Below are positions 20,104 to 36,584 of a stretch of DNA of 64,000 bases, in pieces (within the stretch, counting starts at the first letter, position 1; each line of letters opens with the position of its first letter). The stretch is from Sorangium aterium (GTDB lineage Bacteria; Myxococcota_A; Polyangia; Polyangiales; Polyangiaceae), in NCBI RefSeq assembly GCF_028368935.1, contig NZ_JAQNDK010000003.1, positions 1,800,001 through 1,864,000 on the forward strand. The letters run 5' to 3'. A program made the position numbers and the translations under genes. The notes under the pieces were generated by a model. The model was not told the origin of the DNA and made no database searches. It saw nothing but the letters and a program-made list of their open reading frames with translations.

Positions 20104-21651
20104 TTGCGCCTCGGGATCGATTTCGGAACCACACGGACCGTGGTCGCGTGCTGCGATCGCGGGAACTACCCTGTCGTCAGCTTCCAGGACGCGGCGGGGG
20201 ACACCGTGGATTTCTACCCCTCCGTGGCCGCCGAGCGGCGGGGGGAGCTCCGGTTCGGCTTCGACGCCCTCGCGGTCGCCTCGGACCCCGAGTGGACGGT
20301 GCTCCGGTCGTTCAAGCGCGTGCTCTCCGGTCCGCGCGCGTCGCCCGACGTCGAGGTCGAGATCGGCGGGACGAAGCTCCGGGTGCTCGATCTCTTGACC
20401 CTGTTCCTGCGGTCGCTCCGCGACGCCGTGCTGAACCGGTCGAACCGGCCCAAGAAAGACGACGACGGGCGCCTCATCTCGGTCGTGGCGACGCCGGCCA
20501 ACGCGCACGGGTCGCAGCGGTTCGTGACGCTCGACGCCTTCCGCCGCGCCGGCTTCGAGGTCATCGCGCTCCTGAACGAGCCGTCGGCCGCCGGCTTCGA
20601 GTACACGCACCGCCACCGCAGCACCATCACGTCGAAGCGCGAGCACATCGTCGTCTACGATCTCGGCGGCGGGACGTTCGACGCGTCGCTCGTCCACATG
20701 ACCGGGCGCAGCCACGACGCCGTGACGACCGCGGGCCTGAACCACCTCGGCGGCGACGACTTCGACGCCGCGCTGGCCTCGATGGCGCTCGACGCCGGCA
20801 AGCTCGAGCGCGAGGGCCTGCCCGCGCGCGCGCTCGCGGCGCTCGCGGACCAGTGCCGCGAGGCGAAGGAGCGGCTCAACCCGAACTCCCGGCGCATCGT
20901 GATCGACCTGGAGGCCTGCCTGGGCGACCTCTCGCCCGCCCGCGAGGTGACGATCGCGACCTCCGACTACTACGACCGGTGCGTGCCCCTCGTGGAGTCG
21001 ACCATCGCGGCGATGCAGCCGGTGATCGCGCGCCTCGACGCCGGCGCGGGCGAAGCGCTCGCCGACATCGCGGGGATCTACGTGGTCGGCGGCGCGAGCT
21101 CGCTGCCCGTCGTCGCGCGGACGCTGCGCGAGCGCTTCGGGCGCCGCGTCCATCGCTCCCCCTACCCCTCGGCGGCGATCGCGATCGGCCTGGCCATCGC
21201 CGTCGACGAGGACGCGGGCTTCGAGCTCTCCGACCGGCTCTCGCGCCATTTCGGGGTGTTCCGGGAGGGCAGCGGCGGGGACGAGGTGGTCTTCGACCCG
21301 ATCTTCGACCGGGAGGCGCGCATCCCGTCGAGCCACGAGGCGCCGGTGGTCTCGCGGCGCGTGTACCGGGCGGCGCACAACGTCGGCCGCTACCGGTTCG
21401 TCGAGTGCGCAGCGCTCGACCGGCTCGGCGTGCCCCACGGCGACATCACGGCGTTCAACGAAGTCGTGTTCCCCTTCGACAGGCGGCTCCGCGATCGCGC
21501 GGCCGAGCTCGGCGGGGTGACCGTCGAGCGCATGGGCAGCGAGGGGCCGCTGATCGAGGAGCAGTACGCGATCACCTCGCACGGGATCGTCGAGGTGACG
21601 ATCACCGACGTGGAGGCAGGGTACCGGCGCGTCTACCAGGTCGGGGCGTGA
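20104..21651 (+). CDS. Hsp70/DnaK-like ATPase-domain protein
   Basis: The 515-residue product has the actin/Hsp70 nucleotide-binding fold: phosphate-1 LRLGIDFGTTRTVVA at the N-terminus, AFRRAGFEVIALLNEPSAAG, phosphate-2 VVYDLGGGTFDASLVHMTG (about residues 183-201) and the adenosine motif IYVVGGASSLPVVARTLRERFG (about 325). It is shorter than DnaK (about 640), with a C-terminal part of about 170 residues that lacks a classical helical lid. It probably belongs to the divergent Hsp70 proteins of large-genome bacteria. The likely start is TTG 20104, with GGAGGA at 20089-20094; ATG 20071 in the same frame is an alternative. No DnaJ or GrpE gene is near. Confidence 0.85.
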   Translation: MRLGIDFGTTRTVVACCDRGNYPVVSFQDAAGDTVDFYPSVAAERRGELRFGFDALAVASDPEWTVLRSFKRVLSGPRASPDVEVEIGGTKLRVLDLLTLFLRSLRDAVLNRSNRPKKDDDGRLISVVATPANAHGSQRFVTLDAFRRAGFEVIALLNEPSAAGFEYTHRHRSTITSKREHIVVYDLGGGTFDASLVHMTGRSHDAVTTAGLNHLGGDDFDAALASMALDAGKLEREGLPARALAALADQCREAKERLNPNSRRIVIDLEACLGDLSPAREVTIATSDYYDRCVPLVESTIAAMQPVIARLDAGAGEALADIAGIYVVGGASSLPVVARTLRERFGRRVHRSPYPSAAIAIGLAIAVDEDAGFELSDRLSRHFGVFREGSGGDEVVFDPIFDREARIPSSHEAPVVSRRVYRAAHNVGRYRFVECAALDRLGVPHGDITAFNEVVFPFDRRLRDRAAELGGVTVERMGSEGPLIEEQYAITSHGIVEVTITDVEAGYRRVYQVGA

Positions 21652-21686: not shown

Positions 21687-21738
21687 TGCCCGCTCACGCG
21701 CCCGGGGCGGCTTGCCCGCTCACGCGCCCGGGGCGAGG
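21687..21738. repeat. 26-bp tandem duplication at a gene's 3' end
   Basis: A segment containing TTGCCCGCTCACGCGCCCGG occurs twice head to tail across the end of the PAS-PAS-STAS gene, with one or two differences. Because 26 is not a multiple of three, the second copy is read in another frame. It adds the tail VSGQAAPGA before the stop at 21694-21696. Confidence 0.75.
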
Positions 21739-23004
21739 CGAGAGGGCATACGCGATGCCCGAATCGAGCGTGGACCGCACCAGGAGCCCGCCCAGATCCG
21801 CCCCGAGCTCGACGAGCGTCCGCGCGATCGCGGGCTGGATCCCCGTCAGGAGCACCTGCGCGCCCAGCAGGTTCACCGCGCGCGCCGTCCGCACAAGCGC
21901 GCTCGCGACCTGGGCGTCGATGGTCGGCACGCCCGTAACGTCGAGGATCACCATCGAGGCCTGGTGGGCGACGATGCCCGCCAGCAGGATCTCGAGCACC
22001 TGCTGAGCCCGCGGCGCATCGATGTTGCCGATGAGCGGCATCACCACCACGCCGCGCGCGATCGGCAGCAGCGGCGTGGAGAGGGCGCGCAGCCTGGCCT
22101 CCTGCAGGTGGATGATCTCGTCCTGAAGCCGCTGAGCCTCGGCCTCGGCCGCACGGCTTTCGGTGACCTCCACGGAGATGCCGCACACCGCATGCAGCCT
22201 GCCTCGTGAATCCAGCAGCGGGAACCTGTTCGTCACGAAGGAATGGACGCGGCCCTCGAGCAGGAGCTGCTCCTCCTTGACAACCGGCGCCTCCGTCGCG
22301 ATGACCTGCCGCTCCGACTGCGCAAAAGCCTCGGCGAGCTCCGAAGGCATGACGTCGCGATCGGCGCGCCCGAGCACCGCGTCGCGGGAGATGCCCATGA
22401 GCCGCTCGAAGTGCCTGTTGACGAGCGCATAGCGGCCGTTCAGATCCTTGACGTACACGGCGCTGGGCGCGTGCTCCACGATTGCGGTGACGAATGCCGT
22501 GCTGTCCTGGTACGCCTGTTGGGCGCGCATCCTGTCGGTCACGTCGAGGTTGATCCCGATCACGTAGCGCGCGTCGCCCACGTCGGCCGCCGACATCCTG
22601 GTCTCGGTCCAGACGGTGCGGTCCTCGGTGCGCTCGAGGCCGGCGTCGGCCGTGTTGTACGCGGTCGGCGCCATGATCACGCCTCCGCCGCTCCGGATCA
22701 CCTGTTCGAAGTGGGCAGTGTATCCGCCCGCCATGGCGACAGGGTCCTCGTACATATTATGCTTGCCGACCATGGCCTCCTTCGACGGCACGGCCAGTAT
22801 CTCGCGGTTCCGCCGGTTGATGTCCACAAGTACGCCGTCGGCGCCGTAGAGGGCCGATGGGACCGGCAGGTGCTCGAAGACGCCCTGATACAGCGCCGCC
22901 TGCGCCTCCGCGGCCTGGGCGCGCTGCTCCAGCGCCTTGACCTCGCAGCGGAGCCGCTCCAGCTCCGCCTGCAGTCCCTCGATGTCCATGCCCCGCGGGA
23001 TCAT
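21694..23004 (-). CDS. PAS-PAS-STAS regulator, RsbR-like
   Basis: The 436-residue cytoplasmic protein starts at 23004 (GAAAGGG upstream), with a coiled-coil start (residues 5-35), a PAS domain (about 35-150, VFEHLPVPSALYGADGVLVD), a second PAS domain (about 160-270, IVEHAPSAVYVKDLNGRYAL), a helix, and a C-terminal STAS domain (about 300-420). The STAS part follows RsbR of the stressosome closely: VVVMPLIGNIDAPRAQQVLE, VILDVTGVPTIDAQVAS and VLLTGIQPAIARTLVELG. The residue after the conserved ID, where RsbS has its phosphoserine and RsbR a threonine, is Ala here, so phosphorylation at that site is excluded. The next gene upstream on the same strand is an AEC transporter, 368 bp away. Confidence 0.88.
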   Translation of the reverse strand: MIPRGMDIEGLQAELERLRCEVKALEQRAQAAEAQAALYQGVFEHLPVPSALYGADGVLVDINRRNREILAVPSKEAMVGKHNMYEDPVAMAGGYTAHFEQVIRSGGGVIMAPTAYNTADAGLERTEDRTVWTETRMSAADVGDARYVIGINLDVTDRMRAQQAYQDSTAFVTAIVEHAPSAVYVKDLNGRYALVNRHFERLMGISRDAVLGRADRDVMPSELAEAFAQSERQVIATEAPVVKEEQLLLEGRVHSFVTNRFPLLDSRGRLHAVCGISVEVTESRAAEAEAQRLQDEIIHLQEARLRALSTPLLPIARGVVVMPLIGNIDAPRAQQVLEILLAGIVAHQASMVILDVTGVPTIDAQVASALVRTARAVNLLGAQVLLTGIQPAIARTLVELGADLGGLLVRSTLDSGIAYALSPRPGRVSGQAAPGA

Positions 23005-23371
23005 CGGATCTACCCTTTCAACTCGCGAGTGGCCATCGCGCTCAGGTCGTGTACATTCATTATTACACGCTGGACACTTACATGTTCTGTCCAGCATTGC
23101 CAAGCCGATTTGCTAAGCTCGGCTTTCAGCGATTGGGCGCGTGGTGGCGCTCACACCTGCGCGGGACCTGCGCTCTGCGTCGAATTGGGTCGCGTCAGGT
23201 AGCTCGCTCGCGCCTGATGTAGGCACAGCGAAAACTCGCCTGCACCTGACGGGGCCCCTCGAGCCGATCTTCAAAGCTCATGGACGCGCGGTGGCGGTAT
23301 GGAATTTCGTCTCGTTTGCGACAGGCATGCTCCAGAGATCGGTGCCGATGAGCGGGGAAGCGGAGGGCGCG
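23005..23371. other. Spacer with two inverted repeats, no gene
   Basis: This AT-richer gap precedes the PAS-PAS-STAS gene. It holds the palindrome at 23069-23095 and a second hairpin, AAGCCGA (23102-23108) with TCGGCTT (23119-23125). No coding frame is supported. It is the likely promoter region of the PAS-PAS-STAS gene. Confidence 0.5.
23069..23095. promoter_or_regulatory. Palindrome upstream of the PAS-PAS-STAS gene
   Basis: GCTGGACA (23069-23076) and TGTCCAGC (23088-23095) form perfect 8-bp arms with an 11-nt spacer, 65-91 bp upstream of the start at 23004. The form fits a dimeric repressor or activator site; the binding protein is unknown. Confidence 0.4.
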
Positions 23372-24310
23372 CTACGGGACGATCCGGCGCAGCACCTCGA
23401 TCACGATCGGCAGGCTCGCCAGCGCGCCGAGCGTGGTCACGACCGCGGTGGCCGCGGCGAACTGGCCGTCGCAGCCGTACCGCGCGGCGACGATCACGGA
23501 CACCATGGACGTCGGCATGGCGGACTGCAGCACCGCCACCTCGGAGGTCGGCCGCTTCAGGCCGAGCGCGACCGCGGCGCCGAGCGCGACCGCGGGCGAA
23601 AGGAGCAGCTTCACGGCGGCGACGGCTGCGAGCGGACGCACGCGGCCGCGGAGCGAGGCAAGGTCGAGGCTGAGGCCCAGCGCGAGGAACACGAGCGTCG
23701 GGGTCGCGCTCCCGAGCGCGCCGAGCGCGTGCTCCAACCACACAGGCAGCGGGATCGGCGCCGCGTGGAGCGTGAGCCCGACGGCGATCGACAGCACGTT
23801 GGGGTGCAGGAGCACCGCGAGCAGGCCCCGCCCACCCCCGCCGCCGCCCCCGCCCATGCGCGCGGCGAGCGCGACGCCGAAGGTCCACAGGAGGAACGCC
23901 GTGACGATGCTGTCGACGAGGATCGCCGTCCCCGCCGCGCCGCCCGCGTCGCCGTAGAGGGCCAGCACGACGGGGACGCCGAGGAAGCCGGTGTTGGAGA
24001 AGCTGCCGACGAGGCCGGCGGCGCCCTGCGCGGCGCGCGGCAGCCCGAGCGCCCGCGCCACCGCGACCCCCGCGAGGGCGCACGCGAAGAGCGCGACCGT
24101 CGACGCGGCGACCGCGCCCCACGCGCCGTCACCGATGCCCGAGCGGCGGAGCACGGTGACGATCAGCGCGGGCGTGGTGACGTCGATGACCAGCCGGTGC
24201 AGCACGGCGGCGTCCGCCTGGCCGGCCCGGCCCAGCGCCCGCAGCAGCACGCCGACCCCGAGCACCGCGAAGAGGGCCAGGAGCTGCGAGATCAGGTCGC
24301 CCGACGGCAC
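23372..24310 (-). CDS. AEC-family transporter (auxin efflux carrier-like)
   Basis: The 312-residue membrane protein has about ten hydrophobic segments in two halves. Family-like features are VIDVTTPALIVTVLRRSG near the N-terminus, the NTGFLGVPVVLALYG segment with its conserved Asn/Gly pattern, and ALGLKRPTSEVAVLQSAMPT followed by SMVSVIVAARYG in the second half. AEC carriers export or take up organic anions such as malate. The start is GTG 24310. The gene is followed by an unrelated regulator and preceded by a zinc-ribbon peptide gene on the same strand. Substrate unknown. Confidence 0.85.
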   Translation of the reverse strand: MPSGDLISQLLALFAVLGVGVLLRALGRAGQADAAVLHRLVIDVTTPALIVTVLRRSGIGDGAWGAVAASTVALFACALAGVAVARALGLPRAAQGAAGLVGSFSNTGFLGVPVVLALYGDAGGAAGTAILVDSIVTAFLLWTFGVALAARMGGGGGGGGRGLLAVLLHPNVLSIAVGLTLHAAPIPLPVWLEHALGALGSATPTLVFLALGLSLDLASLRGRVRPLAAVAAVKLLLSPAVALGAAVALGLKRPTSEVAVLQSAMPTSMVSVIVAARYGCDGQFAAATAVVTTLGALASLPIVIEVLRRIVP

Positions 24311-24390
24311 GGCCGGCTTTTAGCTCGGCGGGGGGCGGCGTCCAGCGCTCTCGTCCCTCACCCGGCCTTCGTGAACGACCAGCGCCCGCG

Positions 24391-24588
24391 TCATCGCGCG
24401 CGTCGCCCCGGTGTCCCGTAGGATGGCCGCGGCGCCGCGCCGCCGTCGGCCGCGGCAGGGCAGCTCTCCGCGGTCTCGCCGGTGCAGCACTCGGCCTGGT
24501 TGGCGCCGAACATGGGGCAACGGCCGTTCACGCAGGCGGCGTGGCCATGGATATAGGCGAGCGGCGAAGTGCAGAGCGGGCAGCGCAC
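24391..24588 (-). CDS. Small zinc-ribbon protein
   Basis: The 65-residue peptide begins MRCPLCTSPLAYIHGHAACV and continues NGRCPMFGANQAECCTGE. The CPLC pair and the later Cys residues (VNGRC) make a zinc-ribbon-like site, and extra Cys residues follow. Small proteins with this arrangement occur in other myxobacteria from memory; no function is known. It sits between the AEC transporter and transketolase genes, all on the minus strand, and may be cotranscribed with them. Confidence 0.6.
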   Translation of the reverse strand: MRCPLCTSPLAYIHGHAACVNGRCPMFGANQAECCTGETAESCPAAADGGAAPRPSYGTPGRRAR

Positions 24589-24704
24589 CGCGGCAGACTA
24601 TAGCGCCGGCCGGCCGGCAGCGGAACGGGAGACGGAGACCGCGCCGGGAGCGCCGAGGAATTTGCTTCCCGGCGTTCCCGGCGGTTTCTCGCTTCTTCAG
24701 GAGG

Positions 24705-26693
24705 TCAGGGCACGAGGTCCTGCACCGCCTGCACCACCGCCTGGGCATTCATGCCCAGCCGATCCATCACGATGTCGCCGGGGGCGCTCGTACCGAAGCG
24801 GTCGATCCCCAGGGCGATCCCCTTGAAGCCGACCCACCGGTGCCAGCCGAAGGTGACGCCCGCCTCGATGGACACGCGCCGCGTGCACGCGGCGGGCAGC
24901 AAGGCCTCGCGGTAGGCGTGATCCTGGCGCGCGAACCGCTCCACGCAGGGCATCGAGACGACGCGGACGCCGGGCCCGATCCGCTTCGCGGCCTCGACCG
25001 CGTGCTGCACCTCGCTGCCCGTCGCGATCAGGATGGTCTCGAGCGCCGCCGTCTCCTTGACGAGGACATAGGCGCCGCGCCGGACGCCCTCGCGCTTCGC
25101 GGTGGCGTCGCCCGGGAGCAGCGGGACGGCCTGGCGCGTGAGCGCGAGGACCGTCGGGCCGTCGTTGCGCTCCAGCGCGGAGATCCAGGCGCCGGCCGTC
25201 TCCTCGGCGTCCGCCGGCCGGATGACGTCCAGATCGACGATGGCGCGCAGCCCGGCGACGGTCTCCACGGGCTGGTGCGTCGGCCCGTCCTCGCCCACGC
25301 CCACCGAGTCGTGCGTGAAGATGTAGATGACCGGCAGGTGCGACAGCGCTGCGAGGCGGACGCTCGGCCGCAGGTAGTCCGCGAACACGAGGAACGTCGC
25401 GCCGCTCGGCCGCAGGCCGCCGTGGTACGCGATGCCGTTCATGATCGCCCCCATGCCGTGCTCGCGGATGCCGGCGCGGATGTTCCGACCGCCGAGGTGC
25501 TCCGGATCGAAGTCGGTGCTCGAGGCGATGTAGTTGAACGTCGAGCCGTAGAGGTCGGCGCTCGACCCGATGAGCGCGGGCACCGCCTCGGCGACCGCCT
25601 GCAGCACGGTCTCGCCGGCCTTGCGCGTGGCGACCTTGGTGCCGGCGGCGAAGGCGGGGACGCGCGCGTCGAGGTCCGCCGGGAGCTTCTTCGCGAGGCC
25701 GTCGTCGAGCTGGCGGGCGAGCTCCGGGTTCTTCGCGCGCCAGGCCTGGAAGGTCGCCTCCCACGCCCCGCGCACCTTGGCGAGCTCTTCCTTGCGCGTC
25801 GCGAAGAACTGCTTCACTTCCTCGCTGACGTAGAAGTGCTCCGCGGGCAGCCCCAGGTTCTTGCGGGCCTGATCCACGAACTTGGCGCCGCCCTCGCCGT
25901 GCGCCTTCTGCGTGCCGGCGACCTCCGGGATCCCCTTGCCGATGAGGGTGTGGGCGACGACGAACTTCGGCTTTCCGCTCTTCGACGCCCGCGCCTGGCC
26001 GAGCACCCGGTGGACGGCCTCCAGATCGTTGCCCTGCTCGATGTGGAGCACCTCGAAGCCGTAGGCCTCGAAGCGCTTGGCCGTGTCCTCGCTCTGGGTC
26101 TTGATGGCCATCGCGTCGAGGGTGACGTCGTTGGCGTCGTAGATGAGGATCAGGTTGTCGAGCTTGAAATGCCCCGCGAAGGAGGCCGCCTCGGCGGCCA
26201 CGCCCTCCTGGAGGCAGCCGTCGCCGGCGAGGCAGTAGACCTGGAGATCGAAGATCGTGTGCTCCGGCGTGTTGTAACGCGCGGCCAGCATCTTGGCGGC
26301 CACCGCGTGCCCGACGGCGTTGCCCACGCCCTGGCCGAGCGGGCCCGTCGTCGCCTCGACACCCTCGGTGTAATGGTACTCCGGGTGGCCGGGCGTCTTC
26401 GACTCCCACTGCCGGAAGCGCCGGACGTCGTCGAGCGACACCGGATAGCCGGAGAGGTGCAGCCAGGCGTAGAGGAACATGCTGCCGTGGCCTGCGGACA
26501 GGACGAAACGATCGCGGTTCAACCAGTGCGGTTCGCTCGGATCGTGGCGGAGGAGGTCGCCGTAGAGCGCGGCCCCGATCTCGGCGGCCCCCAGCGGTAG
26601 GCCGAGGTGACCGGATGAGCAGGCGTGGACGGCGTCCATGGCGAGGCCGCGGGCGATCGAGGCCGCGGCGGCGAGCTTGGCGAAATCAGGCAT
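24705..26693 (-). CDS. tkt: Transketolase
   Basis: The 662-residue enzyme is full length. Thiamine diphosphate-binding residues lie in [20 protein letters not shown] (about 151-170) with the GDG...N motif extending to [10 protein letters not shown]. The N-terminal substrate region has HSSGH-like [15 protein letters not shown], and the pyrimidine-domain motif is [14 protein letters not shown] (about 464-477). It moves two-carbon units between sugar phosphates in the pentose phosphate and Calvin-type pathways. The start at 26693 (MPDFAKLA) is preferred to 26702. No transaldolase or other pathway gene is adjacent. The first transketolase residue before SSGH is Cys here (CSSGH). Confidence 0.95.
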
Positions 26694-27063
26694 GGCGCGC
26701 ACTCTAACCTACTTCGTCGCGAAGCGCGCCCCTTCGCGAGGCCCCTCAGGCCCCTAACCCCGCCGTCCGGCGCCTGGAGCGGTCCGAGCGCGCCTCGGCG
26801 CTCGCGTGACTGTCCAGGCTTTCGTGGGATGCGCGGGAGCCGCGGGGCGGAAGGCGGAGATCTGGCCGATCCGGTCATCGGCCGCCATGCGCAGACGCCC
26901 GCCGCGCGGCCCGCTGGGGCTCACGGGCCCCGGCGGGTGCTCGCGTGGCGCCGCGCGGGGACGGACCCCGGGCGGTGTCACGCGAACAGCCGCCGCCCCG
27001 CGGCGCGGGACGCAATGGCGCCGGTGCGGTCGTCACCCCCTGGCGCAGGCGCGCTCGCGTGCG
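26694..27063. other. Spacer, nothing recognised
   Basis: This gap lies between the transketolase start and the lipoprotein gene end, both minus strand. The frames are short and Arg/Pro-rich, and no hairpin or repeat stands out. It should hold the transketolase promoter near 26700-26800. Confidence 0.4.
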
Positions 27064-28866
27064 TCAGGGAGCCAGGACCGCGGCAAAGCCATCTTTGCCC
27101 GCCGCGTCGAACGGACCGGAGCCGAAGTCGGCTGTGCCCATGAAGTCGCCGACAAGCGCGATACGGCCGTCGCGATACGTCGTCATGCCTCGTATCGTGG
27201 CGCGCGTGTCCGCTGACCTGCGGCGCCAGAGCTCCGCGCCGGAAGCATCGAATTTGACGAGGGACTGTCCTCGCAGGGTGATGATGTTGCCGGCGGAGTC
27301 CGTGACCACGGCGTCGCTCGGCGCCTCTCGATGCCAGAGGTAGTCGCCGAGCGGGCTCAGCTTCACCACGAAGTGCGTATTGGCGGGGATTGGCCCACCG
27401 CCGAGATCCAGATTTCCCAGGCTGCGGCCCACGACAAGGACATTGTCCTCGGGGTCGACGGCGACGTCCTTTGCCTCTCCTCCATCGTCCGAGAATGGCA
27501 CCGGTCCGGACAGGAGCTTTCGCCAGAGCAGCGTGCCCGTAGGGGCTCGCTTCTCGACATGGAAATAGTAGGCGCAGGGACATAGCCGTTGGCCGTCCGC
27601 GTGCCCCATGGCCGCAAGGACGTTGCCGGCGCTGTCCATGGCGATCCCGCCTGGGCTTTCGAAGCTCCGATGGGAGAAACCCCACATGTACTCGCCCGCC
27701 GCATCGAATGTCCTCACGGTCATGTCGGTGTCGACGGAGCTCGGGTAGACGAACAGCGCAGCGGAGGTGCCCGCGGCGCCCACCGCGATGCCTCGCAGGT
27801 TGATCGAGAGCGGGGAGCTATCGTTGATGTATCCGCGGCTGAAGAGGTGGTTCCCGTCCGGATCGAGCTTGACGAAGAAGACGGCGTTCCGCGAGGAGTC
27901 ACTGACCCAGGGGAGCGGGCCGCCTCCGAAGTCGACAGGCCGCGGCAGCCCGTCGAAGAGGGCGCCGCCATAGTTTCCGCCGAGGAAGATATTGCCGCTC
28001 GCGTCGAGCGCGATCTTGGTTCCTGCTTCCCCGTAGGGGATGCTGCCGAATCGTTTGCTCCATATCGCATGGCCTGCCGGGTCGAGCTTGAGCACGAACA
28101 CATCCGTAGATCCTGCGCTCACGAGCGGCCCCGCCCCGAAATCGACCGTCCCCTCGAACGCGCCCGTCACATAGAGGTTGCCCGCGGCGTCCGTTGCGAC
28201 GCCGTAGGCGGCGTCAGCTCCAGCGCCGCCCAGAGCGGCGGACCACAGCGGCGGAGGCGAGCATTGCCCCGAGCCGTCGCAGTCCTCGTCGGCGTCCGTG
28301 GCGCAGTCTTCGACCGACGGCGTGACCTCGCCGGTGCACGGGCCATAGCCGGATCCGTCGGGCAGGCAGGTTTGAGCACCGACGGTGCAGAGCCCTACGC
28401 CTTGCGTTCCCGGGGGCCCCGAATAGCAGCTCAGATGCGACCCCGGCTCGCAACTCGCTGTGCCGCCACCGCCGCCCCCGGTCGCCGGCTCTCCCCCCGC
28501 GCCTCCTTGCCCGCCGCCACCGCCGGTCGCCGGCTCCCCTCCCGCGCCTCCCTGGCCTCCGCCCCCGGTCGCCGGCTCTCCCCCCGCGCCTCCCTGGCCT
28601 CCGCCCCCGGTCGCCGGCTCTCCCCCCGCGCCCCCCTGGCCTCCGCCCCCGGTCGCCGGCTCTCCCCCCGCGCCTCCCTGGCCTCCGCCCCCGGTCGCCG
28701 GCTCTCCCCCCGTGCCTCCTTGCCCGCCGCCCCCGGTCGCCGGCTCTCCCCCCGTGCCTCCTTGCCCGCCGCCACCGCCCCCGGTCGTGCAGCCGACGGT
28801 CAGCGCCATCCCGAGCATCGCAGCCCCTCTTAGCCTCTGCCACAGCCGAGCACCTCCGTGTCTCAC
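27064..28866 (-). CDS. Gly-rich lipoprotein with a beta-propeller-like (SBBP) domain
   Basis: The 600-residue product has a lipoprotein signal ending LTVGC (about residue 24), a linker of seven GGEPAT-ending units, a Cys-rich segment (SCEPGSHLSCYSG, CTVGAQTC, EDCATDADEDCDG) and a repeat domain of about 430 residues. The repeats follow the pattern AYGVATDAAGNLYVTG..., DVFVLKLDPAGHAIWSKRFG and recur several times, the SBBP-type beta-propeller repeats found in many myxobacterial surface proteins. GTG 28866 is the chosen start, preceded by AAAGGTGGAG. It would be lipid-anchored at the outer surface. Role unknown; adhesion or sensing are possibilities only. Confidence 0.78.
   Translation of the reverse strand: MRHGGARLWQRLRGAAMLGMALTVGCTTGGGGGGQGGTGGEPATGGGGQGGTGGEPATGGGGQGGAGGEPATGGGGQGGAGGEPATGGGGQGGAGGEPATGGGGQGGAGGEPATGGGGGQGGAGGEPATGGGGGGTASCEPGSHLSCYSGPPGTQGVGLCTVGAQTCLPDGSGYGPCTGEVTPSVEDCATDADEDCDGSGQCSPPPLWSAALGGAGADAAYGVATDAAGNLYVTGAFEGTVDFGAGPLVSAGSTDVFVLKLDPAGHAIWSKRFGSIPYGEAGTKIALDASGNIFLGGNYGGALFDGLPRPVDFGGGPLPWVSDSSRNAVFFVKLDPDGNHLFSRGYINDSSPLSINLRGIAVGAAGTSAALFVYPSSVDTDMTVRTFDAAGEYMWGFSHRSFESPGGIAMDSAGNVLAAMGHADGQRLCPCAYYFHVEKRAPTGTLLWRKLLSGPVPFSDDGGEAKDVAVDPEDNVLVVGRSLGNLDLGGGPIPANTHFVVKLSPLGDYLWHREAPSDAVVTDSAGNIITLRGQSLVKFDASGAELWRRRSADTRATIRGMTTYRDGRIALVGDFMGTADFGSGPFDAAGKDGFAAVLAP
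28470..28790 (-). repeat. Tandem repeat encoding Gly-rich GGEPAT linker, seven units
   Basis: Seven copies of a unit mostly 42 bp long encode GGGGQGGAGGEPAT or GGGGQGGTGGEPAT within the lipoprotein gene. The first and last units differ slightly in length (Gly number). Four adjacent units are identical at protein level, a pattern expected from slippage or unequal crossing over. Confidence 0.85.
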
Positions 28867-29431
28867 GAGCTCCACCTTTCCCTTCCGGGTACTGACGACG
28901 GGATCCCCGAGCGCCTCCCTGGTTCTGGACGCGGGAGGAGCGCAGGCCACGATGCGCTAGGTGCGCCGACGCGCGCGCACATTCATCTCGCGCGGAGCCC
29001 CCAGGCGGGCAGGAGCACAGGCCAGCGGCCGGCAGCGCTCAGGGCGCCCGAGCATGAGGAGCTCCAGCGGCTGGAGATGGGGATGGAGCGTGAGCGCCGA
29101 AAAAGCGGAGGACTCCCCGCGAAGGAAAGCAAGTGAGGCGAGCCGACACGGGACCTCGGAACGAGGCGGAAAGCGCCCATCTCATGCGTACTCATGCGTA
29201 CGTAGATGAAAGGGAGGACCTGTGTGGCTCAGCCCACCCTCTCCGCCCACCCTACGACCCTCTCCGCTTCCGCCTACAAAAGGTATGTTAAGGCTGAACA
29301 GCCCGTGGTACGAACCGAAGAAGAGAAGGTGGAATGTTTCTTGTGACGGGGCCGCCAGCTCACCGTGTACGCATTTGCTCGCTCGCTATCCGCCGGGGCA
29401 CGCCGACCGGGCGCACGAGGCTCGCTCGATC
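28867..29431. other. Divergent promoter region
   Basis: This gap separates the minus-strand lipoprotein gene from the plus-strand receiver-STAS gene. It contains a tandem 10-mer, CTCATGCGTA at 29181 and 29191, followed by AGGGAGG at 29211-29217. A frame is open from GTG 29222 into the receiver-STAS gene, but its N-terminal residues are Pro/Ser/Arg-rich and not domain-like, so it is treated as leader. Confidence 0.45.
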
Positions 29432-30439
29432 GTGCTGAGCCTGCAGAATCCCATGCAAGCGCAAGAAGCTCCGCTCTCTGGGCTCGTCCTCATCGTGGAC
29501 GATAGCGCCGACAACCTGGCCGTGCTGTCGAGCGCGCTCATTTCTGATGGCCTGGAGGTCGCCGTCGCGCGCGACGGTGAGGAGGCGATCGAGCTGGCCA
29601 GCCGGGCCCAGCCGGACCTCGTCTTGCTCGACGCTCTGATGCCCGGCCTCAGCGGGTTCGAGACGTGCCGGCGGATCAAGGCCGATCCGGCGACGCAGAG
29701 CATCCCCGTCATCTTCATGACGGCGCTCGCCGAAGCGAGGTTCAGGATCCAGGGCTTCCGGGTGGGCGCCGTCGACTATGTGACAAAGCCGTTCGAGAAG
29801 ACCGAGCTCCTGGCGCGGGTGCACACCCAGATCTCGCTCCGGCGCGCAACGCGGGCTCTCGAGGAGCGGAATACGAGGCTCACGGAGGAGATCCGGGAGC
29901 GCGCCAAGGCGGAGGAGGCGCTGGCGCAGGCCGTGCAAATGCTGCGCGACACGAACGAGCGGCTCTCGCAGCAGCTGGTGCAGAGCGAGCGCGCCGAGGC
30001 GGCCAGGGCGGCGCTGCAAGAGCAGATCATCGCGGCCCAGCGGGAGCGGCTCCTCGAGCTCTCCGCTCCGCTCATTCCGATGATCGATGGCGTCCTCGTG
30101 ATGCCCCTCATCGGCACGGTGGACGTCGAGCGTGCCGGACAAGCGGTCGAGACAGCGCTGCGCGGAGCGAGCGAGCGCACGGCGGACACTCTCATCATTG
30201 ACATCACCGGCATAAAAGCAGTAGATGAGACGGTTGCTCGCATGCTCGTGCAAGCGGCGATGGGGCTCTCGCTCCTCGGCACACGGACGATCGTCACGGG
30301 CATCCGCGCAGAGGTGGCGCAAACGCTCGTGGCGCTCGACCTGCAGCTCGATCAGCTCGTGACGAAGGCCACCCTGCAGTCGGGCGTGGAGCACGCGCTG
30401 CGGACACGCGGCCGCCGCCGGCACAGGCCCGAGCTCTGA
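29432..30439 (+). CDS. Receiver-STAS protein (RsbR-like output)
   Basis: The 335-residue protein has an N-terminal receiver domain (about residues 15-135): VLIVDDSADN acidic pocket, phospho-acceptor Asp near 66 in LVLLDALMPG, and YVTKPFEK with the conserved Lys. A coiled-coil helix (about 145-205) leads to a STAS domain (about 210-330) like RsbR: VLVMPLIGTVDVERAGQAVE, LIIDITGIKAVDETVARML and IVTGIRAEVAQTLVAL. The residue after the conserved VD is Glu, where RsbR has Thr. GTG 29432 (GAGG 11 nt upstream) or ATG 29453 are the possible starts. The hybrid kinase gene follows 64 bp later and may phosphorylate the receiver. Confidence 0.85.
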   Translation: MLSLQNPMQAQEAPLSGLVLIVDDSADNLAVLSSALISDGLEVAVARDGEEAIELASRAQPDLVLLDALMPGLSGFETCRRIKADPATQSIPVIFMTALAEARFRIQGFRVGAVDYVTKPFEKTELLARVHTQISLRRATRALEERNTRLTEEIRERAKAEEALAQAVQMLRDTNERLSQQLVQSERAEAARAALQEQIIAAQRERLLELSAPLIPMIDGVLVMPLIGTVDVERAGQAVETALRGASERTADTLIIDITGIKAVDETVARMLVQAAMGLSLLGTRTIVTGIRAEVAQTLVALDLQLDQLVTKATLQSGVEHALRTRGRRRHRPEL

Positions 30440-30503: not shown

Positions 30504-33500
30504 ATGGATCTGAGAGACTACGTTGTGGGGGACGTGATGCACGAAGGGGCCGAGACCCGCGTGTGTCGCGCGGTCCATCGTCCCTCCGGCGACAGGGTGG
30601 TGCTCAAGCTCCCCGCGGCGGCCGCGCCGAGCTCGCGCGTGACGGGGCGCATCCTGCATGAGCATCACATCCTGACACAGCTTGGAGAGGTGTCAGGGGT
30701 AGCGCGGGCGCGGGAGCTCCTGCAGCGGGGCGGCACGGCCGCGCTGGTGATCGAGGACCCCGGCCTCCGGTCGCTGGATCTAGAGCTCGCCGAGCGCGGG
30801 CGCCTGCCGGTGGAAGCGGTGCTGAGGCTGGGAGCGCTCCTCGCTCGAGCCCTCGAGGCCGTGCATGCGGCCGGCATAACGCACAAGGATATCAAACCAC
30901 AGAACGTGCTGGTCGACGCGGCGTACGCGCAGGTCAAGCTGCTCGACTTCGGCATCGCCTCGTCGCTACCGCTGGAGGCGACGGCGGCGAGCATCCCCGA
31001 AGGGCTCGAGGGGACACTGGCGTACATGTCGCCCGAGCAGACGGGCCGCACAGCGCGGGCGCTCGATCCCCGCACCGACCTGTACTCGCTCGGAGTGACG
31101 CTCTTCGAGGCGCTCTCAGGGCGGCTACCGTTCACCGAGCGCGACCCGCTCTCGCTGGTGCACGCGCACCTGGCCAAGGAGCCGCCGTCCCTCGACGAGG
31201 TCGTCCCCGATGTGCCTCCGGGCCTCGCGGCGATCGTGTCCAGGCTGCTCGCGAAGAACCCTGACCGGCGGTACCAGACGGCCAAGGGCGCAGCGGAAGA
31301 CCTGGAGCGAGCGCTGCGCATGTGGCGCGAGCGCGGCGCGGTGGAGCGCTTCACGCTCGGGGACAAGGATTTCTCGCAGAAGCTGCGGCTGCCGGACGTC
31401 CTCGTCGGGCGAGAGCACGAGCGCGATCTGCTGGGCGCGGCCTTCGCCCGCGCCGCCGAGGGCGCGGCGGAGCTCGTGCTCATCGGCGGCCCGTCCGGCA
31501 TCGGCAAGACGGCGCTCGTGCGCACCGTCTACCGGGACATCGCGCGCGCGGGGCGCGGGCTCCTGATCTCGGGCAAGCACGACCAGCTCGCGCGGTCGAC
31601 GCCCTACGCGGCCATGGCGCAAGCGTTCGGGGCGCTGATGCAGCAGTGGCTGGCGAGCCCGAAGCCGACACTGACGGCGTGGCAGGAGCGGATCAGGGCC
31701 GACGTGGGGGACAACGCCCGGCTCATCGCCGACGTGGTGCCGGAGCTCGACCTGATCATGGGCAAGCTCGCGCCGGTGCCGCCGGTGCACGGCGAGCAGG
31801 TGCTCGCCCGCCAGCGGCTGACCTGGCTGAACTTCGTGAGGGCGGTCACGACGCCGAACGCGCCGCTCGTGATGTTCCTCGACGACATGCAGTGGGCCGA
31901 CAGCGCCACGCTGGAGATCCTGAGGACGCTGCTGACCGACGCAGAGCGGAGAGACCTCCTCTTGATCGCGGCGTACCGCGACAACGAGGCGCCCCCCGAG
32001 CACCCGCTGTGGAGGCTCGTGGCGTCGGTCGAGGAGAGCGGGGCGAGGGTGTCGAGGATGTCGGTGCACCCCCTTTCGGCGGAGCACGTGCAGGCATGGA
32101 CAGCGCGGGCGCTGAGCAGCGAGGCGGCGCGGGTGGAGCCGCTCTCGCGCATCCTGTGGCAAAAGACGCGAGGAAACCCGTTCTTCATGGAGCAGCTGCT
32201 GCTGTCCCTGCACCGGCAGAGCAAGGTGGCGCGGGACCCGGAGAGCGGCGCGTGGCGCTGGGGCCAGAAGGAGATCGAGCAGGCGCAGGTGACCGACAAC
32301 GTCGTCGCCCTCCTGACGGACAAGCTGCTCGAGATGCCTGAAGCGACACAGCAGCTCCTGGGGCTCGCGGCGTGCGCGGGGCACGCTTTCCACCTCCACG
32401 ACCTGGAGCGGCTCAGCGGATGGGAGCGCGCCCGGGTGACCGGCGCGCTGTGGCCCGCCCTGCGGGAGGAGCTGGTGGTGCCGGCCGACGGAGCCTACCG
32501 GACCGCGCAGGCGCTGGGAGAGGCCGGAGCCGGAACCGGAACTGGAACTGGAACTGGAACTGGAACTGGAACTGGAACTGGAACTGGAACTGGAACTGGA
32601 ACTGGAACTGGAGAAGGAGCGCTCGACGCTGAATACCGCTTCTTGCACGACCGCGTGCAGCAGGCGAGCTACGAGCGGGCCCCGCCGGCGCAGCGCGTCC
32701 TGGCGCACCTGGAGATCGGCCGGCGGCTGTGGGCGCGGCATCGGGCGCAGGGGGGCACACCGCAAGAGCTCCTGGAGCTGGTGCGGCACCTCAACCTCGG
32801 CTCAGCGCGGATGGACTCCGCAGGCGAGCGCGAGGCGCTGGCGCGGCTGAACCTCGAGGCCGCGCGCGCCGCGAAGGCGGCGAGCTCGTACCGGCTTCTC
32901 CTGAGCCTCGCCGAGGCCGCGCGGGGCTTGCTGGGCGATGACGCATGGCGCAAGGACGCGGCGCTGTGCGCGGAGCTCGCGCTCGAGCAGATCGAGGCGG
33001 CCTTTCTGCTGCGGGAGTTCGACGACGTCGAGGCGCGGTGCGCGCGGCTGCTCGCCATGCCGCTGCCGGCGCTCACCAGGCTCTCGGCGCAGGAGCTCCG
33101 CGTCCGCAGCGCCCAGGCGGCGGGCCAGTTCGCGCGAGGGGTCGAGCTCGGGCTCGCCGCGCTCGCGGAGCAGGACATCGCGTTTCCGGGCACCGACGAC
33201 GCGCGCAGCGCCGCGCTCCTCGAGGAGTCCGCCGAGCTGGATCGATGGTTCGAGCGCGACCCGGACGCGTTCGAGCGGATGCCCCTCGATCCCTCCCCGG
33301 AGCAGGTGATCATCGATGCGCTGACCATGCACCTCATGGTGTGTGCGGCGATCGGCGGTCAACCGCTGCTGTCCGGGCTCGTGATCGCCCGCGCCGTGCT
33401 GAGGGTGCGAGAGCGGCGCGCGCTCACGCCGGTCTCTCCCTTCATCATCGTTTGCTTCGCGAACGTCTGGTCGCTCACCACGGGCATGTACCGTCGCGCT

Positions 33501-36500
33501 GCGAGCTGGGTCGGCCCTGGAGTGCGCGCGGCCGAGCGCGTCGCGTCGCCCTTTCTGGCAGAGTGTCTGTCCTTCCACGGGCAGTACACGGCCTACTCCC
33601 GCCCCGCGGATGAAATGGCGCCCATCTTCGAGCGAACCTGCGCGACCGGCCTGAAGGTCGGCTCGTTCCAGGGGGCGAGCTGGGGGCTGGAAGGCGACCT
33701 GTTCTATTACCGAGTGTGGCGTGGCCAGCCGCTCGGGCAGCTCGAGGCGCACCGGGCGGCGCGCTGGGGGTTGATGCAGCGCGCGGGGACCGCGCTCGGG
33801 ACGCACTATTTCGAGGCGATCGCGTCGTGGTGCGACCTCTTGACGACCGCCGACGGCGCGGGGAGGCTGCTGTCGGGCGAGCCGCTCTCACGAGGATCGC
33901 GCTCCTTCCTGGCGGACGGAGACGGGATGGCAGCCGAGCTGGCTCGCATCCTCGAGGCGCACCTGTTCCTCGTCGCCGGCGCGTACCCGAAGGCGCTCGC
34001 GCGGGCACGGGAGGCCGAGCAGTTCCGCGTGTCCATCTTCGGCTTTCCTCCGGTCACGGACATACCGCTCTGGCTCGCGCTCGCGGCCGCGAGGTGCTGG
34101 CCGACAGCCACGGACGCGGCGGAGCGGGCCGGGCTCCGCGAGGACATCGAGCGAGGCCTCGCGCGGCTGAGGTACTTCGCCGAAGGGAGCGCGGACAATT
34201 TCCTCCACAAGCTGCGCCTCCTCGAGGCCGAGCACGCCCGCGTGCAGGGCAAGACCGACGAGGCCATGGCCAGGTACGACGAGGCCATCGAGCTCTCGCG
34301 CGAGCAGCGATTCTTTCCTATCGAAGCCCTGGCCGCTCAGCTCTGCGCCGAGTTTCACCTCGAGGCGGGCAGGCGCCGTATCGCCGCGCTGTACCTGCGC
34401 GAGGCCAGGGACGCCTATGCTCGCTGGGAAGCGCACGCCGTGGTGGCCCACCTGGAGGCGAGGTGGCCCGCCCTGCTCCGTGCGCCTGTCCAGCCCGCGA
34501 CGGCGGAGCGCCGCCGCACGACGGGCGTCGCTACGCTGACCACCACGGGAGTCACGGGCGGCGCGCAGCTCGACGTGAACACCGCGGTCCGCGCGGCGCG
34601 GGCGCTGTCGAGCGAGCTCGACCCGGAGCGGGTCGTCGGGCGTCTGATGGAGCTCGTGCTGGAGAGCGCGGGGGCGCAGCGCGGCGTCCTGCTGCTGGGC
34701 GAAGGCGAAGAGCTCTCGGTCGTGGCGCGGCTCTCGGTGGAGGGAGGCCGCATCGAGACGGGCCTGTCCGAGCCGCTCTCGCAGAGCAGCGAGGTGGCGA
34801 GGACGGTGGTGCACTACGTGGCGCGCACGAACGAGCCGGTCGTGGTGGACGACGCCAGGTCGGACGCGCGCTTCGCGGCCGATCCGCACCTGGCCTCGCG
34901 CCCCGTGCTCTCGCTCCTCTCGCTTCCCTTGTCGCATCGAGGGCGCCTCCTCGGCGTGCTCTACCTCGAGCATCGCGAGGTGCCTGCGGCGTTCCCCGAA
35001 CGGCGGGTGGAGCTCCTGTCGGTGCTCGCCGCGCAGGCCGCCATCGCCGTCGAGAACGCCCTCCTGTACCGGGACCTGGAGGCCAAGATCAAGGAGCGCA
35101 CCGTCGAGCTCCGCATCGCCAAGGAGGCCGCGGAGCGCGCCAGCCAGGCCAAGAGCGACTTTCTCTCCAGCATGAGCCACGAGCTGCGAACGCCGCTCAA
35201 CGGGATCATGGGTTATGCCCAGATCCTGGAGCGAACGCCCGACGTCCCGCCGGCGTGGCGGGAGGGCCTGCGGGTCATCCAGAAGTCGAGCGAGCACCTG
35301 CTCTCGCTCATCAATGACCTGCTGCACCTGGCCAAGATCGAGGCGGGGAAGATGGACTCCGTCCTGACGGAGTTCCGGTTGCCTGCGCTCGTGCGGACCG
35401 TGGTCGACCTGTGCCGGGTGCGCGCCGAAGCGAAGGCGATCACATTCTCCCACGACCTTCGCGGACCTGCGCTTCAGGCCGTCTGCGCCGACGAGAAGCG
35501 GCTGATGCAGGTGCTCTTGAACCTCCTCGGCAATGCCATCAAGTTCACGGAGCGGGGAAGCGTGGCCCTCCATGTCGAGGTGCTGGAGGAGACCGTCCCG
35601 GCAGGGCGGATGGTGCGGTTCCGGGTCGAGGATACGGGTCCTGGGATCGCCCCGGAGCACCTGTCGCGCATCTTCGAGCCCTTCGAGCAGGTGGGGGAGC
35701 AGAGCGCGAAGAGCGAGGGCACAGGGCTTGGCCTCGCCATCACGAAGAAGCTCGTGCAGCAGATGGGTGGTGCGATCGAGGTGCAAAGCGAGGTCGGCGC
35801 GGGCAGCGTCTTTACGGTGACGCTTCCGCTCGCCGAGGCGCAGCTCGCGACGAGCCCAGGCGAAGCCAGGGGGTGGGACACGATCGTGGGCTATCAGGGG
35901 GAGCGCCGCGCGGTGCTCATCGTGGACGACAATCCCGACAATCGCGCGGTGGTACGCGAGCTCCTCGGCCCGCTCGGCTTCGAGCTGTGCGAGGCGGACG
36001 GCGGTGAGGCGGCGCTGCGCATGGCGGCGCTGCGCGCGCCGGCGCTCATCCTGCTGGACGTGTACATGAAGGACATGGACGGCTACGAGACCGCGCGTCG
36101 CCTCAGGTTCATGCCCGAGCTCCGGCAGGTCGTCATCCTGGCCTCGTCGGCGAGCGTATCCGAGGCCGAGCGGCAGCAGTGCGCCAGCGCCGGCTGCGAT
36201 GACTTCTTGCCCAAACCGATCGTGGCGAGCGCGCTCCTCGACAAGATATCGCGGTTGCTTGGCATCGAGTGGCTTCGCCGCGATGAAGCCCCCGCTCGGG
36301 ACGCGCCGGCGGAGGAGCTTGAAGGCGACGGACACCTCGCGCCGCCTCCGGCCGAAGAGCTGGCGATCCTGTCGGCGCTCGCGAAGAAGGGGCTCGTCCA
36401 CAAGATCCTGGAGGAGGCGGAGCGGATAGCGCAGCACGATCCGCGGCTCAGACCTTGGATCGAGCAGCTCACGACGCTGGCACGCAGCTACCAGACCCGG

Positions 36501-36584
36501 AAGCTGCGGGACTTCGTCGGCGCGTACGGCCCAAACGGCGCGGGCGGCGCCGATGGCCGCGCGGAACCGCAAGAATCGACGTAG
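30504..36584 (+). CDS. Giant hybrid: Ser/Thr kinase, AAA ATPase, GAF, histidine kinase, receiver
   Basis: The 2,026-residue protein has, in order: a protein kinase domain (about 10-275; THKDIKPQN with catalytic Asp near 129, [24 protein letters not shown]); a predicted AAA-type ATPase (P-loop GPSGIGKT near 329, Walker [13 protein letters not shown]); a helical TPR-like region interrupted by a 13-unit Gly-Thr repeat (about 677-702); a GAF domain (about 1355-1520); a histidine kinase ([18 protein letters not shown], His about 1560; [23 protein letters not shown]); and a receiver ([10 protein letters not shown], Asp about 1850). A short helical tail ends it. This is the known Ser/Thr-kinase plus histidine-kinase ('PknB-AAA-GAF-HK') layout. 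The binding site AGGAG at 30488-30492 supports the start. It follows the receiver-STAS gene closely. Confidence 0.93.
32532..32609 (+). repeat. Hexanucleotide microsatellite, 13 units, in-frame
   Basis: GGAACC at 32532 is followed by twelve perfect GGAACT units ending at 32609. They encode (Gly-Thr)13 inside the giant kinase gene. Gain or loss of units keeps the frame and changes only the linker length. Confidence 0.95.

Follow-up and report, generated by a model that had tools for sequence, protein, structure and literature searches.

Two RsbR-like proteins in the window

The 64,000-nucleotide stretch of the Sorangium aterium genome analysed here (contig NZ_JAQNDK010000003.1, positions 1,800,001 to 1,864,000; the window) encodes two proteins related to the stressosome subunit RsbR, and in both of them the two classical RsbR phosphorylation sites are gone, as they are in the RsbR paralogue YtvA. 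A prediction made from the DNA letters alone, below called the original prediction, had placed both open reading frames correctly, at 21694-23103 on the minus strand (P0001, 469 amino acids from a TTG start) and at 29222-30439 on the plus strand (P0002). Both proteins have the RsbR-type layout of an N-terminal sensor, a helical linker and a C-terminal STAS domain; according to their sensors they are referred to as the PAS-PAS-STAS and the receiver-STAS protein.

Comparison with orthologues shows that conservation of the PAS-PAS-STAS protein starts near residue 36-40. Its second PAS domain (22153-22479, minus strand, residues 209-317) is recognised as Pfam PAS_4, the first is predicted from the AlphaFold model alone, and a Pfam scan of the sensor part returned PAS families only. 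The RsbR-type STAS domain, identified by phmmer and Foldseek, comprises residues 346-436 (21796-22068, minus strand). The receiver-STAS protein probably starts at the ATG at 29453, where conservation sets in, which gives a form of 328 amino acids. Its receiver domain (29486-29821, plus strand) possesses the acidic pair, the phospho-Asp, the Thr and the Lys of such domains, and the predicted phospho-acceptor is Asp60 of the 328-residue form (29630-29632, plus strand), a role which we take over from the response-regulator family. An 89-residue continuous helix, predicted by AlphaFold (29798-30064, plus strand), leads from the receiver to the STAS domain, which phmmer and Foldseek again assign to the RsbR type (30074-30346, plus strand, residues 285-375 of the open reading frame).

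Among solved structures, RsbR chains are the best phmmer matches of both STAS domains, with E values of about 1e-27 to 1e-31; the RsbR chain 9o3o aligns with the domain of the PAS-PAS-STAS protein over 128 residues without a gap (E 2.4e-29). Both predicted STAS domains also match Listeria RsbR 7b0u in Foldseek (1.9 A over 134 columns and 2.1 A over 129 columns), and YtvA (2mwg) ranks first in Foldseek for the PAS-PAS-STAS model. Both proteins are nevertheless classified as RsbR-like and not as canonical RsbR, because Thr or Ser is missing at the position of Thr171/Thr175. For a place among the RsbR paralogues neither classical residue is needed, as YtvA shows.

Loss of both classical phosphorylation sites

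Three threonine columns of the RsbR STAS domain were read, namely site A (Thr171 in Bacillus subtilis, Thr175 in Listeria), site B (Thr205/Thr209) and site C (Thr237/Thr241), whereby the column numbers 175, 209 and 241 were taken from chain 9o3o and agree with the Listeria sites in passages of PMC12154155 and PMC9237128. Alignment with RsbR and RsbS chains places the phosphorylated serine of RsbS and Thr205/Thr209 of RsbR in one column, site B. The Thr that follows Ile/Val-Asp falls on Ala397 (GCC, 21913-21915, minus strand) in the PAS-PAS-STAS protein and, in the same column, on Glu336 (GAG, 30227-30229, plus strand) in the receiver-STAS protein. Each of the two residues begins a helix right after the conserved Asp in the respective AlphaFold model, and the Ala and Glu of the original prediction are upheld by phmmer and by the models.

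The assignment of a second, retained RsbR threonine to the motifs AQTLV and ARTLV had to be corrected. Those threonines, Thr429 of the PAS-PAS-STAS protein (21817-21819, minus strand) and Thr368 of the receiver-STAS protein (30323-30325, plus strand), align to site C (241 of 9o3o), and the column of the classical Thr171/Thr175 is occupied by Ala363 (22015-22017, minus strand) and Val302 (30125-30127, plus strand), respectively. The third Thr is kept in both window proteins and is replaced by Ala in the closest orthologue of the PAS-PAS-STAS protein.

The source genome (G000, 13.5 Mb) was compared with G060, with G061 of the same genus and with G056 of another genus, the last as a sample in which 56 of 98 STAS hits, 54 of them RsbR-like, were read. 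Subtraction of two RsbS-like hits and of one hit each that we read as RsbV-like and SulP-like leaves 72 RsbR-like domains among the 76 STAS hits of the source genome; a long gene with a STAS domain enters the 72 two times, because the start of contig C1 (L089 1-6536) and the end of contig C3 (L090 3741-10276) are identical over at least 6,536 bases. Over the 76 hits, site B is occupied by Thr (24), Ala (17), Ser (13), Glu (7), Val, Gly and Pro (3 each), Ile and Gln (2 each), Met and Asp (1 each), and 39 of the 72 RsbR-like domains have neither Thr nor Ser there. Among the RsbR-like domains of G000, G060, G061 and G056, Thr or Ser is present at site A in 32/72, 32/83, 24/90 and 21/54, at site B in 33/72, 38/83, 31/90 and 25/54, at both in 21/72, 24/83, 18/90 and 15/54, and at neither in 28/72, 37/83, 53/90 and 23/54. 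Loss at sites A and B is common in the family and not special to the two window proteins.

The states of A and B are associated among orthogroups. Site B is Thr or Ser throughout in 16 of the 19 orthogroups in which site A is, as against 8 of the 46 others (p = 7e-7), and in 27 of 65 orthogroups no member has Thr or Ser at either site. The subfamily with a Trp in the first strand, to which the operon-encoded RsbR belongs, has site B entirely Thr or Ser in 16 of 24 orthogroups versus 8 of 41 others (p = 0.0004), a contrast to be taken as descriptive because shared ancestry was left uncorrected. As a separate observation, very long reading frames of more than 1,500 amino acids hold 8 to 12 STAS hits in each of the four genomes, eight of them in G000.

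Turnover of the sites between orthologues

The closest orthologue of the PAS-PAS-STAS protein (G060, 88.6% identity) has Thr at B and Ala at both A and C, and relatives at 57% and 52% identity have Glu and Ala at B, respectively, and Ala at A. The original prediction had named a Thr in relatives as the result that would speak against it, and such a Thr is found already in the nearest one. Orthologues of the receiver-STAS protein possess Glu (85% identity), Ala (79%), Glu (78%) and Ala (76%) at site B and Val or Ala at site A, whereby the codons for Glu and Ala, GAG and GCG, differ by a single base.

Turnover at site B is seen genome-wide. In the reciprocal-best pairs of G000 and G060 with at least 70% identity, site B differs in 17 of 40, which ranks it tied first of 128 columns, while the preceding Asp differs in 1 of 40. 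With three genomes and 114 orthologous pairs, which share members and are hence not independent, site B differs in 36 (rank 5 of 128 STAS columns), site A in 29 (rank 14) and site C in 10 (rank 71), against an average of 0.119 per column. On a FastTree phylogeny of 245 domains, the minimum number of changes is 87 for B and 92 for A. Columns 48, 105, 128, 67, 54 and 40 are as variable as site B, which puts the site level with the fastest-changing columns; the simplest explanation would be relaxed constraint, with adaptive tuning of the site as a less likely one.

A coupling between sites B and C, which touch each other in Listeria innocua RsbR according to passages of PMC9237128, was considered and is not claimed. 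Of the 33 orthogroups with Thr always at C, 27 show no variation at site B, as against 15 of the 32 others (p = 0.004; one orthogroup that is not 1:1 was left out of the table), but the always-Thr class also diverges less (0.097 versus 0.144), and an independent-pairs test gave no correlated change.

The receiver-STAS clade and its hybrid kinase

At an E value of 1e-62, 17 homologues of the receiver-STAS protein were found in 12 of 317 genomes of the class, and with one weaker match (L115, G019) 18 were read. The receiver residues, the DD pair, D, T and K, are intact in all 18, site B is Glu in ten, Ala in six, Val in one and Gly in one, with Thr or Ser in 0 of 18, and site C is Thr in 13, Ala in four and Glu in one. 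Within flanks of 1.5 kb, each of the 18 genes has a stretch of a kinase gene, in 13 cases the Ser/Thr-kinase start of a hybrid kinase and in five a histidine-kinase part. With the STAS frame masked, a kinase neighbour was seen in three genomes for 8 of 8 receiver-STAS genes versus 10 of 176 other RsbR-like genes, a control from which 61 of 245 rows with fewer than 1,500 unmasked bases had been dropped.

The kinase lies downstream on the same strand in the five Sorangium-group orthologues, and in the window the gene at 30504-36584 (plus strand) encodes a protein with Ser/Thr kinase, AAA, GAF, HisKA, HATPase and receiver domains according to Pfam; the same gene is the neighbour in relatives. From gene order and domain content we take the receiver-STAS protein and the hybrid kinase to form a functional pair. 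The hybrid kinase gene also contains an alternating Gly-Thr run, possibly a repeat of variable length.

Core rsbRST modules of the genome

By sequence and gene order, RsbS and RsbT are encoded in the same genome as the two window proteins. The C3 locus comprises rsbR (PAS-STAS), rsbS, an rsbT-like HATPase gene, a gene of the SpoIIE family at the rsbX position and another HATPase gene; the second locus combines an rsbT-like gene and a SpoIIE-family gene with another rsbS (L097 2770-3339, minus strand), the product of which, RsbS2, has a long acidic C-terminal tail. RsbS2 shares 96.9% identity over 160 amino acids with its counterpart in G060, the second highest value among 51 reciprocal-best pairs. 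The nearest phmmer matches of the two RsbS proteins are the STAS protein 2vy9, presumably Moorella MtS, and 6jhk, an RsbS. RsbT was assigned by HATPase family and gene order; a phmmer search of the PDB with the RsbT candidate gave no match at E 0.01. In all four genomes the operon RsbR carries Ser at site A and Thr at sites B and C, the RsbS serine is likewise kept in 4/4 and the RsbS2 serine in the three genomes read.

A proposed role as phospho-blind sensors in a mixed stressosome

With a probability of about 0.6, both window proteins are RsbR-type sensor subunits of a mixed stressosome that, having lost both classical sites, are phospho-blind, with the receiver-STAS protein driven by His-Asp phosphotransfer. 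The large family would divide roughly into members which keep Thr or Ser at A and B and phospho-blind members without both, in which site B would drift among Ala, Thr, Glu, Val, Gly and others. Judged from the orthologues, site B looks like a switch released from selection and not like one jammed on or off. In a subunit that lacks sites A and B, the known routes of priming and damping by RsbT would be closed; other subunits of the presumed mixed assembly, the operon RsbR and RsbS, would prime, release and damp RsbT, while the sensor domain of the phospho-blind subunit would act on the STAS core via the helical linker. The original prediction, which had left sensing to the N-terminal domains, fits in so far as neither protein is phosphorylatable at site B in the source genome, which leaves the N-terminal domain as the only entry for input, a point that the intact receiver and the conserved kinase neighbour support in the case of the receiver-STAS protein. 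Its input would be phosphorylation of the receiver Asp by the neighbouring hybrid kinase, and the signal might run from the kinase via the receiver Asp and the 89-residue helix to the STAS domain.

Several observations weigh against this reading. Thr or Ser is present at site A in 4 of the 18 receiver-STAS homologues, and the A-B association among orthogroups may be explained by shared ancestry, as co-change of the two sites was not significant in an independent-pairs test (together 3.1, apart 0.8-0.9 on average). Over 245 rows, the presence of a receiver was not associated with the state of site B (p = 0.37). Three receiver-containing STAS proteins with a longer N-terminus carry Ser at B, 3 of the 11 receiver-containing STAS proteins of three genomes; a general rule that a receiver excludes Thr or Ser from site B was therefore rejected and restricted to the receiver-coil-STAS clade. 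That the window proteins enter an RsbS-containing stressosome at all is a supposition. In B. subtilis, moreover, RsbRA T171A nearly abolishes signalling when all four RsbR proteins are present (PMC3944199), so that a subunit without site A could be a brake and not neutral; the effect may depend on the mixture, and T171A combined with S59A still signals with RsbRA as the sole co-antagonist (PMC3944199).

A bolder version, which we consider doubtful, would leave only a minority of phosphoswitch subunits (21 of 72) beside a larger phospho-blind class with lineage-tunable gain at the damping site, while one clade, the receiver-STAS protein with its Ser/Thr-His hybrid kinase, would link two-component signalling to the stressosome hub.

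Alternatively, many paralogues, both window proteins included, might work outside the stressosome, in separate partner-switching or sensor complexes that dispense with phosphorylation by RsbT. Both window genes lie away from the two rsbS/rsbT clusters that were found, just two RsbS-like STAS hits were recognised versus 72 RsbR-like ones, and the eight STAS hits of the source genome in the very long frames would suit such complexes. We nevertheless regard this as unlikely, since the solved structures nearest to these STAS domains are those of RsbR and the RsbR paralogue genes of B. subtilis are scattered too, as stated in passages of PMC9765535.

The turnover at site B could also be adaptive, with lineages setting the damping or stoichiometry of single sensors in a mixed complex by swaps among Thr, Ser, Ala and Glu. 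High turnover at a functional position directly after a conserved Asp would agree with this, as would the Listeria data, in which, according to passages of the respective papers, Ala in place of T209 or T241 raises sigma-B-dependent transcription in unstressed cells (PMC9237128) and T209A as well as T209E alter core composition (PMC12154155). Relaxed constraint, however, accounts more simply for a site that six other columns equal in variability, and we regard adaptive tuning as quite unlikely.

That Glu locks the receiver-STAS protein in a phospho-like and Ala the PAS-PAS-STAS protein in an unphosphorylated state, with permanently opposite action, as originally predicted, is very improbable: T209A and T209E indeed move the ratio of RsbR to RsbS dimers in Listeria RsbR cores in opposite ways (23:7 and 15:15; passages of the preprint PMC12154155) and Glu at both YtvA sites has been proposed as a phosphate mimic (passages of PMC3019169), but orthologues at 76-89% identity carry Ala where one window protein has Glu, or Thr where the other has Ala, the family also has Val, Gly, Pro, Ile, Met and Gln at B, and T209A was similar to the phosphomimetic strains when tested under stress and in infection (passages of PMC12154155). 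Because orthologues swap site B, phospho-blind sensors coupled by conformation to the core are favoured.

Whether phosphorylation of RsbR is a switch or a mere modulator of the stressosome is unsettled in the literature (PMC3944199 and passages of PMC9237128 and PMC12154155). The roughly 70 natural RsbR variants of one genome, 28 of 72 without either classical phosphosite, represent a ready mutational series, in which paralogues and orthologues that differ at the phosphosites could be compared within one complex. The receiver-STAS protein and its hybrid kinase would offer two-component signals a way into a stressosome, and this pair together with the natural variant series at two phosphosites is the most interesting outcome.

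Relation to known systems

The nearest precedents are YtvA and Listeria Lmo0799 (RsbL), which like the window proteins are RsbR paralogues without both phosphoacceptor threonines; passages of PMC3019169 give Glu168/Glu202 at the two sites of YtvA and His163/Glu197 for Lmo0799. YtvA is a LOV photosensor with Glu at A and B, whereas the window proteins have PAS-PAS and receiver sensors and Ala/Ala and Val/Glu, with B changing between orthologues. RsbRA-D of B. subtilis and RsbR of Listeria and Vibrio share the C-terminal STAS domain, the N-terminal sensor, the helical linker and the third Thr with the window pair, which unlike them is devoid of both classical phosphoacceptors. The operon RsbR of the source genome has the same Ser/Thr pair as Vibrio vulnificus RsbR (Ser199/Thr233; passages of PMC9237108).

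A histidine kinase that addresses partner switching via a receiver, as proposed here, is described in passages of PMC10950880 for RsbK/RsbY of Bacillus cereus and RsfS/RsfR of Mycobacterium smegmatis; in those systems the fusion partner of the receiver is a PP2C phosphatase, in the window protein an RsbR-type STAS domain. Expansion of the family in the genus has been noted before, as Sorangium cellulosum, with 71 COG1366 proteins, was reported in 2010 to hold more of them than any other prokaryotic genome that the authors knew of (PMC2887360), the passages concerned being silent on phosphoacceptor residues. A survey of these residues in myxobacteria was not found in the open-licence literature, to which the search extended.

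Neighbouring genes

An Hsp70-family gene (20113-21648, plus strand; Pfam HSP70, E 2.9e-38) converges with the PAS-PAS-STAS gene, its frame ending 42 bases short of the PAS-PAS-STAS frame. Upstream of the receiver-STAS gene, the gene at 27064-28950 (minus strand) encodes a protein with Gly/Ala-rich repeats (GGEPATGGGGQGG) and a match to the SBBP beta-propeller, and in G060 (L258) the receiver-STAS gene is preceded by two adjacent copies of this gene.

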